Of a stretch of DNA of 64,000 bases, positions 16,207 through 19,846 are shown piece after piece. Both the position numbers and the translations under genes were made by a program. The notes below the pieces were generated by a model, which saw only the letters and a list, made by a program, of their open reading frames with translations, made no database searches and was not told where the DNA came from. Position 1 is the first letter of the stretch, and every line of letters begins with the position of its first letter. The stretch comes from Lachnospiraceae bacterium (GTDB lineage Bacteria > Bacillota > Clostridia > Lachnospirales > Lachnospiraceae), in contig JAILKC010000055.1 of assembly GCA_024694055.1 (NCBI GenBank), positions 1-64,000 of the forward strand. Direction: 5' to 3'.

Positions 16207-17799
16207 TTATTTCAGGGCATCCTTTTCTACCAGTTTAACACTGACAGTCATATCGGTATATTCACCGTCTGAGAGTCTTGCCAGTTCCACTTCCACAGTC
16301 TCACCGACTTCATGATATTCAAGCTCTGCTCTGAGCTCTTCCATCGATTCAATCTTCTTGCCTGCCACCTTCGTGATCACATCACCCTGCTGCAGACCAC
16401 TCTCATATGCACCTGTATCTTCATATACATCTCTGACAAGGACTCCGACAGGTAATCCGTATACCTGTGATACTTCTTCAGTAACGGTCTGTCCGCCTAT
16501 TCCGAGATATCCCTGTCTGTTTACACTTACTTTTGTTCTCTCAGTACTTGTAACTATATCGCTTAAAATAGGCTGTGCCGATGTGATCGGGATGGCAAAT
16601 CCCACACCGTCTACTGCAGCACCACCGATCTTGCTTGAGCTTATTCCGATCACTTCTCCGCTCATATTGAGGAGCGCACCGCCTGAATTACCCTGATTGA
16701 TAGCCGCATCGGTCTGTATAAGCCCCTTTGACTCTGTTCCGTCAGACATCGTCAGGCTACGGTCTACCGCACTTATCACGCCTGATGTAACTGTCTGTCC
16801 AAATCCCAAAGAGTTGCCTATCACTATTGCAGGCTCGCCAATCTTTATGGCATCGGAATCACCGAGTGTCGCTACTTTGATCTCATTCTTCGTACTGTCT
16901 TTAAGATCATCCGTATCTACTATAATCACCGCAAGATCAACATCTGCATCAGTACCCTTTATCACTGCCTCGGCAGTCTCTCCGTCTATGAACTGAACTT
17001 CGAGCTTCTCACTGTCTTCGACAACGTGATTGTTGGTAGCTATGTATAACTTGTCTGCGTCCTGACCTATTATGATGCCGGAACCGCCGCCACTCGCTTC
17101 TCTGGATATCGTCTGTCCCCAGAAACTCTGCTCCGTGACTACATACTTACCTGTGATGGACACTATCGAAGGCATTGCCTCATCCACGATCTGTGACACA
17201 TCCGTAAGCATTGCATAATAGCCTGTATGCCCGTCACTGTTTTTAAGGATCTCCGGCTTGGCATCGGCCGTTTTCTGCTCAGGTTCTGATTCTTCTTTCG
17301 GCACCTGCTCTATAACAGCGCTTTCATTTGAAGGAGTGATGCCCTTGGTCTCAGCTTCCTTTGTTACCTTGTTAAAAAGGAAGAAGCTTGCGCCTGCCAT
17401 AAGTCCGAATAATATTCCAAGTCCCACGACCGCCATAACGGTACCGAACATCGAACCATGCTTCTTTTCTTTATGCGGCTTGTCCTCGCCAAAACCGGTA
17501 CCATATTTACTGTGTTCTTCAAAACTGCTGTGATATGTATTGCCGGTCGGCCTTGAATAATATGTTCCGTTATCCGTCCGGGATGATTGTTCTGACATGC
17601 TTCCTGTCGTGTAGGAAGCCCTGTTCTCACCGGATGTATAATCATAATGCCTGCTCGAATACAGGCCGCCGGAACTGTTCTGTGTACTTACTGCATTGTT
17701 CTGAGTCGTGCCGTTACTGCCACTGACATCGGATGTATTGCTGTTATCACTGTTATCACTATTGTTCAGATCATTATTCATTCCATACTCATTCATCAT
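16207..17799 (-). CDS. htrA: HtrA/DegP-type S1C serine protease with PDZ domain, membrane anchored
   Basis: TM GTVMAVVGLGILFGLMAGASFFLF; catalytic NNHVV, DADVDLAVI, QTDAAINQGNSGGALLN; C-terminal PDZ PVGVLVRDVYEDTGAYESGLQQGDVITKVAGKKI. Confidence 0.92.
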   Translation of the reverse strand: MMNEYGMNNDLNNSDNSDNSNTSDVSGSNGTTQNNAVSTQNSSGGLYSSRHYDYTSGENRASYTTGSMSEQSSRTDNGTYYSRPTGNTYHSSFEEHSKYGTGFGEDKPHKEKKHGSMFGTVMAVVGLGILFGLMAGASFFLFNKVTKEAETKGITPSNESAVIEQVPKEESEPEQKTADAKPEILKNSDGHTGYYAMLTDVSQIVDEAMPSIVSITGKYVVTEQSFWGQTISREASGGGSGIIIGQDADKLYIATNNHVVEDSEKLEVQFIDGETAEAVIKGTDADVDLAVIIVDTDDLKDSTKNEIKVATLGDSDAIKIGEPAIVIGNSLGFGQTVTSGVISAVDRSLTMSDGTESKGLIQTDAAINQGNSGGALLNMSGEVIGISSSKIGGAAVDGVGFAIPITSAQPILSDIVTSTERTKVSVNRQGYLGIGGQTVTEEVSQVYGLPVGVLVRDVYEDTGAYESGLQQGDVITKVAGKKIESMEELRAELEYHEVGETVEVELARLSDGEYTDMTVSVKLVEKDALK

Positions 17800-17864
17800 T
17801 AGCCTCCGTTCCGGAGCGGGATCATAACCTCTCTCCTTTTGATAAGGCTAATATAGTATTAAAA

Positions 17865-17916
17865 TGTGTTCAAATTGTGTACAGAATGTGTGAATTTTGT
17901 CAAAAATTTATGTAAA
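17865..17916. promoter_or_regulatory. Array of TGT-boxes with 11-bp period upstream of htrA
   Basis: TGTGTTcaaatTGTGTAcagaaTGTGTGaatttTGTCAAaaatttaTGTAAA; TGT at 17865, 17876, 17887, 17898 (11-bp steps) and 17911. Confidence 0.65.
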
Positions 17917-17977
17917 CCTGCAAATCAAGCAGCAACTCACTTTATCATATACCTGATCTGAACATGCACCTGTCGGA

Positions 17978-19846
17978 TCATTCAACAGTAACAGATTTAG
18001 CCAAATTCCTGGGCTTGTCAACATCAAGTCCCTTGGCTACACTTAAGTAATAGCCAAGCAACTGAAGAGGGATGACCGCAAGCGATGCTGCAAAATGTTC
18101 ATCAATCTTGGGCACATATACCGCAAAATCCACTGTATCTTCTATCTCATAGTGACCGTATGTGGTAAGTCCCATAAGGAATGCACCTCTGGCCTTACAC
18201 TCTACCATGTTGCTGACAGTCTTCTCATACAGATCATTCTGCGTAAGCACGCCGATCACTAAGATATCATCTTCTATCAGACTGATAGTTCCATGCTTAA
18301 GCTCACCTGCTGCATATGCCTCCGAATGGATGTAAGAGATCTCTTTCATCTTAAGGCTTCCCTCAAGAGATACCGCGTAGTCAAGACCTCTTCCCACAAA
18401 GAACACATCCTTTGCATTGGAGTACTTGGCCGCAAACCACTGAAGTCTCTCTTTATCCGTAAGGATCTTTTCTATCTTCTCCGGTATGGTCTTAATCTCT
18501 TCTATGTATGAAGAATATGTCTCGTCATCTATAAGCTTTCTCACACGACCAAACTGTATGGCAAGCATGTAGCATGCCACAAGCTGTGTACTGTAAGCCT
18601 TTGTAGTAGCCACGGCTATCTCCGGACCTGCCATTGTATACAGTACATGATCCGCTTCGCGCGCAATGGATGAACCCACTACATTGACTATTCCGAGTGT
18701 CATGGCACCAAGCTTACCTGCCTCTCGAAGACCCGCTAACGAGTCTGCAGTCTCTCCGGACTGAGATATCACTATTACAAGATCGTTTTCATTTAAAAGA
18801 GGCTTCCTGTATCTGAATTCTGACGCAAGTTCAACCCTGACCGGAATATGAGCAAGATCCTCAAATACATACTGAGCCGCCATTCCGACATGCCATGCCG
18901 AACCGCATGCAACTATATAGATCTGTCTGATCTTTGCTATCGTCTCCTCGTTAAGGCCTGTCTCAGTAAGATCTATCTTATCTCCATTCATAAGGGATGC
19001 GACCGTATCTTCAACTGCCTTGGGCTGCTCATGTATCTCCTTCATCATGAAGTGCTCATATCCGCCCTTCTCAGCCGCTTCGGCATCCCACTCTATCTCG
19101 ACCTTCTCCTTTTTGATCTCGTCACCATCGAGATTATAGAAATGCACCTCTCCGGCACGAAGACAAGCCATCTCCTGATTGCCGATATAATATACGTTTC
19201 TGGTGTACTTAAGGATAGCCGGTACATCGGATGCAACATAAGTCTCACCATTCTCCACGCCTATGACCATCGGAGAATCTTTTCTCGCAACCCATACCTC
19301 ATCCGGGCGTTCCCTAAACATAAGTGCAAGCGCATAAGAGCCACGTACACGTACCATGGTCTTGGCGATCGCATCTATGGGGCCGATATTATATTTGTTG
19401 TAATAATAATCTACAAGCTTAACAGCCACTTCAGTATCCGTCTGAGAATAGAACTCATACTCATGACGAAGCAGCTTGGCCCTCAACTCCTGATAATTCT
19501 CTATGATACCGTTATGCACGCCGACCACATTGGCTTCTTCAACAGCTATGCCATGATCCGGTCCGCCGCATGATACGTGAGGATGTGCATTGATCTCGGA
19601 AGGTTCTCCGTGAGTCGCCCATCTGGTATGGCCTATGCCGATCTTGCCGGCAAGTGACTTACCGTCATTGGTCTTCTCAGCCAATTCCTTAAGTCTTCCC
19701 TTGGCTTTAACGACTCTTACACGTCCGTCCTCGTCCCTGACAGCCAGTCCCGCAGAGTCATAACCTCTGTATTCGAGCTTGGCAAGTCCATCCAAAAGGA
19801 TAGGTGCCGCCTGCTTATCTCCTATATATCCTACTATTCCACACAT
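17978..19846 (-). CDS. glmS: Glutamine--fructose-6-phosphate aminotransferase (isomerizing)
   Basis: MCGIVGYIGDKQAAPILLDGLAKLEYRGYDSAG..., GIGHTRWATHG, SIS domains, C-terminal DKPRNLAKSVTVE. Confidence 0.98.
   Translation of the reverse strand: MCGIVGYIGDKQAAPILLDGLAKLEYRGYDSAGLAVRDEDGRVRVVKAKGRLKELAEKTNDGKSLAGKIGIGHTRWATHGEPSEINAHPHVSCGGPDHGIAVEEANVVGVHNGIIENYQELRAKLLRHEYEFYSQTDTEVAVKLVDYYYNKYNIGPIDAIAKTMVRVRGSYALALMFRERPDEVWVARKDSPMVIGVENGETYVASDVPAILKYTRNVYYIGNQEMACLRAGEVHFYNLDGDEIKKEKVEIEWDAEAAEKGGYEHFMMKEIHEQPKAVEDTVASLMNGDKIDLTETGLNEETIAKIRQIYIVACGSAWHVGMAAQYVFEDLAHIPVRVELASEFRYRKPLLNENDLVIVISQSGETADSLAGLREAGKLGAMTLGIVNVVGSSIAREADHVLYTMAGPEIAVATTKAYSTQLVACYMLAIQFGRVRKLIDDETYSSYIEEIKTIPEKIEKILTDKERLQWFAAKYSNAKDVFFVGRGLDYAVSLEGSLKMKEISYIHSEAYAAGELKHGTISLIEDDILVIGVLTQNDLYEKTVSNMVECKARGAFLMGLTTYGHYEIEDTVDFAVYVPKIDEHFAASLAVIPLQLLGYYLSVAKGLDVDKPRNLAKSVTVE

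Follow-up and report, generated by a model that had tools for sequence, protein, structure and literature searches.

Direct repeats upstream of htrA predict an OmpR-family regulon of htrA and small RNAs across Lachnospiraceae

Comparison of promoter sequences indicates that the four direct repeats upstream of htrA in the window (the whole stretch of DNA analysed here, 64,000 nucleotides from a Lachnospiraceae bacterium) are a real part of the htrA promoter and a predicted on-switch found across Lachnospiraceae. We consider it highly probable that this array is the site at which a response regulator of the OmpR/PhoB family, most likely one encoded on contig C28 of the same genome, switches on htrA, and that this protein would also drive a small RNA. 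What computation shows is the site with its spacing and conservation, the way it accompanies htrA, the regulator gene and the RNA, and the RNA's structure. The first-pass annotation, made from the window alone, missed the larger regulon, in that the element also marks the regulator gene and small RNAs.

Four TGT boxes at exact 11-bp spacing had been described on the plus strand, and reading the sequence directly we find them as described, with TGT starting at 17865, 17876, 17887 and 17898 and a TGTAAA at 17911. Since htrA is encoded on the minus strand, we work with the reverse complement, TTGACA-N5-CACACA-N5-TACACA-N5-AACACA-N9-TATATT, in which the half-sites take the form NNCACA. The features of the region are as follows.

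16207 to 17799, minus strand: htrA, the putatively controlled gene, encoding a membrane-anchored trypsin-like serine protease with a C-terminal PDZ domain
17800 to 17977, minus strand: intergenic region of 178 bp from glmS (stop at 17978) to htrA, containing the promoter and the htrA leader
17850 to 17855, minus strand: TATATT, the -10 hexamer of the htrA promoter, separated from the last half-site by exactly 9 bp, a spacing invariant in 75 aligned promoters
17865 to 17870, minus strand: half-site 1 (proximal), AACACA, its CACA conserved as detailed below
17876 to 17881, minus strand: half-site 2, TACACA, from sequence and footprinting
17887 to 17892, minus strand: half-site 3, CACACA, a weakly conserved position (in the count matrix, A kept at -10 and C in a minority at -11)
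17898 to 17903, minus strand: half-site 4, TTGACA, where the consensus is TTTCA[C/T]A (C in 53 of 75 and A in 64 of 75 at -22/-21)

No match to a -35 hexamer was present 17 bp from TATATT; the TTGACA at 17898-17903 was considered for this role and rejected, as at 42 bp it is too far from the -10. The TGTAAA at 17911, a candidate fifth box, was not conserved in footprinting and was left out of the count. Within the leader, an 8-codon upstream reading frame (ATGATCCCGCTCCGGAACGGAGGCTAA; 17799-17825, minus strand) has its own Shine-Dalgarno-like AAAGGAGAGAGG and shares bases with the start codon of htrA (TAATG), which suggests that the two are translationally coupled.

The window contains no second four-fold TGT array (0.00 expected), and the core element that we derive from the array, CACA-N7-CACA-N9-TAnnnT, has a single match there (0.04 expected). 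Across the whole 2.3 Mb genome, however, the bare array occurs three times, against three for a reversed control. TGT periodicity alone therefore proves nothing, and we rejected it as evidence by itself; the significance of the array comes from its conservation.

We assembled htrA orthologues from 20 genomes of the same genus and from 149 of 150 genera of Lachnospiraceae to footprint their upstream regions. The core element was found upstream of htrA in 58 of 69 genera (it is missing from the other 11) and in 17 of the 19 same-genus genomes examined. With exact spacing it is present in 75 of 88 htrA upstream regions, where the flanking bases are near random. In these upstream regions, CACA spacings of 4, 5, 6, 8, 9 or 10 with the -10 gave zero matches, as did a distance of 8 or 10 bp to the -10 and the antisense strand; the reversed sequence gave one. 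The first-pass annotation had named loss of the repeats beside equally conserved flanks as the outcome that would speak against it, and the opposite was found, so that its proposal, an array for an OmpR-family activator directly before the htrA -10, gains strong support from phylogenetic footprinting. Direct repeats one helical turn apart, at a constant distance from the -10, are the arrangement of an OmpR/PhoB-family-type promoter, and all 75 promoters show it. Because their count matrix reveals an additional half-site, TTTCA[C/T]A, lying two turns farther upstream, with a weak one between, we regard the four-fold array of the window as a regular example of what these alignments indicate to be a general promoter design. 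The element is present in all six loci named Lachnospiraceae (L063-L066, L068 and L075), and was not found in the fifteen outgroup loci checked (Ruminococcus, Bacillales and others).

Scanning the 20 same-genus genomes with CACA-N7-CACA-N9-TATnnT returned 39 sites, against 2 for the reversed pattern. Reading the downstream sequence assigned 31 of the 39 sites to htrA (15), an OmpR-type regulator gene (3), one type of small RNA (9) or other terminator-ended, small-RNA-like transcripts (4), leaving 8 as other or chance matches. A stricter scan with TATACT over 60 genera gave 37 sites (2 reversed), of which nine are htrA by BLAST and most others precede short, structured, terminator-ended transcripts. 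Several further types of such transcript lie behind the element (L186, L187, L200; L199, L211; L184, L189; L196, L203, L205, L313, L314) and repeat CUUUUUCAUA, CUCAUA, CUACUCCCACCC or CCGGCCCCCC stretches; they are probably more RNAs of the same regulon. In one genus, CACA-N7-CACA-N9-TATACT lies about 85 bp upstream of an ARAGORN-confirmed tmRNA gene (L213, G024:C38).

The regulator gene found behind the site in two genomes (G157 and G153) has an orthologue in the genome of the window, 83% and 70% identical respectively:

G000:C28:1885-2556: candidate response regulator (L144), with receiver and Trans_reg_C domains (OmpR/PhoB type)

All 20 same-genus genomes and 57 of 60 genera have an orthologue, and the recognition-helix region of these proteins is near-invariant (DARTxDTHVKKLR). 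CACA-N7-CA[C/T]A-N9-TAnnnT occurs in the regulator's own promoter in 16 of 29 other genera, where the proximal half-site is CATA instead of CACA, and in 6 of 20 same-genus loci, counts for which shuffled sequences would yield at most about 0.01. Directly upstream of the regulator gene in the window's own genome, no element is present. A histidine kinase gene falls within the examined flank of the regulator in 42 of 51 loci. The kinase of the window's genome (HAMP, HisKA and HATPase_c domains) is encoded three genes beyond the regulator, and two methionine-synthase-related genes separate the two (L365 1885-7198, G000:C28). On this evidence from sequence, the C28 response regulator, together with its nearby sensor kinase, is most likely the regulator of the array.

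The second element site in the window's genome stands in front of a small RNA:

G000:C101:6849-6923: small RNA of about 75 nt, between recJ and murE/priA

The computed fold of this RNA (-33.9 kcal/mol, z = -6.8) consists of a hairpin at the 5' end, then an unpaired UCUCCCCCCUCAUAA, then a terminator. A covariance model (R1), built from eight copies with the promoter sequence excluded, found copies in 16 of the 20 same-genus genomes and in 46 of the 150 genera. The element lies no more than 60 bp upstream in 44 of the 46 RNA copies examined when C/T is allowed in the half-site cores, and in 25 exactly, where shuffling expects none for the exact element. Because the RNA was searched for without its promoter, this association is an independent test for most copies, the eight seed copies having themselves been found via the element. 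Compensatory changes support 20 of 23 base pairs of the helices, with a covariation score of 0.571 against 0.156 for shuffled alignments; the alignment of 56 rows includes three antisense matches and was fitted to the model, so the pair count leans somewhat toward structure. The C-rich core is near constant across copies and the terminator sequence variable. Two genomes carry tandem copies (L340, at 1501 and 2031, plus strand; L347, at 1501 and 1733, minus strand), as is likewise known for csRNAs and LhrC, and in G031 a TwoAYGGAY RNA (Rfam RF01731; L337 1218-1384) lies about 115 bp from the small RNA. In Rfam searches the small RNA matched nothing, either at E<=1 over 20 motif loci (several of these contain it) or at the gathering score over 20 loci; a single weak match, to a snoRNA model elsewhere in L196, was set aside, not being the small RNA. 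No paper with the exact RNA-core strings was found in the literature searched. Mean pairing energies of the C-rich stretch with the ribosome-binding sites of 44 window ORFs were no better than those of reversed or shuffled RNA, and hence we claim no targets for it.

Could the array be bound by a different protein? The same activator-type site might serve another OmpR-family regulator, whether WalR-like, CssR-like or some other paralogue. Trans_reg_C has ten matches in the window's genome, the CssR box of B. subtilis, TTTTCACA, is similar to the half-site here, and in G003 and G033 the element is present at htrA and/or small RNAs while no orthologue of the proposed regulator is found at the expected identity (best matches 43-44%, in assemblies that are possibly incomplete). 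Against this, the element recurs in the promoter of one regulator gene only, that of the C28 type (22 of 49 loci), and a search around the other nine regulator genes of the window's genome found none. The C28 protein falls below the cut-off of every NCBIfam equivalog shown, WalR/YycF included (192.7 bits, cut-off 340), as do four other regulators of this genome, so that none of the five tested reaches WalR/YycF. The link to WalR suggested in the first-pass annotation, which we rejected on this cut-off, also fails at the half-sites, as TGTGTT, TGTGTA and TGTGTG do not fit the W at position 4 of TGTWAH. We therefore regard binding by another family member as unlikely, though it is the alternative to which we give most weight.

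The sign of regulation might instead be reversed, with a regulator seated over the -35 region as a repressor and keeping htrA off until stress. OmpR-family proteins are able to repress, and the array occupies the position expected for a -35. However, there is no -35 hexamer at the right distance, so that the unaided promoter would be weak, and the fixed 9-bp gap to the -10 resembles activated CiaR promoters, in which TTTAAG-N5-TTTAAG stands ten bases from the -10; a repressor operator is accordingly a distinctly improbable reading. That the TGT periodicity is a functionless accident of an A+T-rich intergenic region could be argued from the genome-wide count of three, the same as the reversed control, but 75 of 88 htrA upstream regions keep the exact spacing without keeping the flanking bases, and the core element is the sole match in the window where 0.04 are expected. 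Chance is refuted by htrA footprinting and by the associations with the regulator gene and the small RNA, and we give it practically no credence. Activation of htrA by the C28 regulator remains the preferred reading.

Several known systems invite comparison. In streptococci, CiaRH controls htrA and the csRNAs via TTTAAG-N5-TTTAAG boxes (PMC3091779, PMC8186281, PMC12826053). The likenesses are an OmpR-type regulator, two half-sites with N5 between them and about ten bases to the -10, and the same box before htrA and before short RNAs that end in a terminator and leave unpaired a stretch complementary to ribosome-binding sites. The box of CiaRH, however, is NTTAAG-N5-TTTAAG, whereas the half-site here is NNCACA and TTTAAG-N5-TTTAAG was not found; the conserved recognition helix of CiaR is VVEVYVSKVRKKL, whereas the C28 regulator has TVDTHVKKLRSKL; and, unlike the csRNAs, the RNA core here is UCUCCCCCCUCAUAA, in a different bacterial class. 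LisRK controls LhrC (PMC4132741) and is reported to regulate htrA in Listeria (PMC12826053). It shares the combination, predicted here from sequence, of an envelope-stress two-component system, multicopy small RNAs and htrA. The LisR-responsive element lies upstream of -53 and is without consensus, whereas the array here abuts the -10; UCCC motifs of LhrC bind the Shine-Dalgarno region from three sites in loops and linker (PMC4132741), whereas our RNA has one unpaired C-run. CssRS controls htrA in B. subtilis, through boxes TTTTCACA (PMC6749698, PMC12826053), and resembles the present case in two-component activation of htrA (htrA/htrB in that species) by an OmpR-type regulator, activation being predicted here. 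Its box is close to the upstream half-site TTTCA[C/T]A, while the proximal two sites here are NNCACA; linked small RNAs were not found for CssRS in the literature searched, and the few Bacillales htrA upstream regions examined (L069, L122 and L139) are without the element. Finally, the WalR (YycF) box TGTWAH-N5-TGTWAH likewise consists of 11-bp direct repeats for an OmpR-family regulator, but the core here is CACA and the C28 regulator is about 150 bits under the YycF cut-off. The box and recognition helix of CiaR being absent, and the WalR model not being reached, we do not assign the system to CiaRH or WalR; its sequence features mark it as the predicted Lachnospiraceae counterpart of CiaRH/csRNA/htrA and LisRK/LhrC/htrA, with a different box and unrelated RNAs.

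The model that we infer supplies the bound protein, activation by its binding, an envelope-stress signal and a mode of action for the RNA. Envelope or secretion stress would cause the kinase to phosphorylate the regulator, whose monomers would bind head-to-tail in 11-bp steps on one face of the DNA. As the -35 is absent, a docked activator is the likely mode: the bound regulator would stand in for that contact and keep RNA polymerase at the -10, exactly 9 bp downstream. The targets of this activation would be htrA and the small RNAs, joined in many species by the regulator's own gene. The unpaired C-rich stretch of the RNA presumably blocks ribosome-binding sites by pairing with them, as has been demonstrated for the UCCC motifs of LhrC and proposed for the csRNAs. 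Translation, probably that of envelope or secreted proteins, would thereby be repressed, with HtrA removing the misfolded ones.

With somewhat less assurance than for the array itself, we think it probable that htrA, the regulator's own gene and a family of C-rich small RNAs absent from Rfam and from the literature searched form an envelope-stress regulon extending across Lachnospiraceae, under the control of a near-universal two-component system. After the streptococcal and Listeria systems, this would be the third example, wired independently, in which a single response regulator turns on both HtrA and RNAs aimed at ribosome-binding sites. Lachnospiraceae are dominant members of the gut community, and few of their regulatory circuits have been worked out; for most of the family, the analysis predicts at one stroke a regulon, its binding code, its regulator and a family of small RNAs. 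If this is true, streptococci, Listeria and Lachnospiraceae all place HtrA and ribosome-binding-site-directed small RNAs under a single envelope-stress regulator, each with boxes and RNAs of its own, and such recurrence would suggest a general design for the Gram-positive envelope-stress response.
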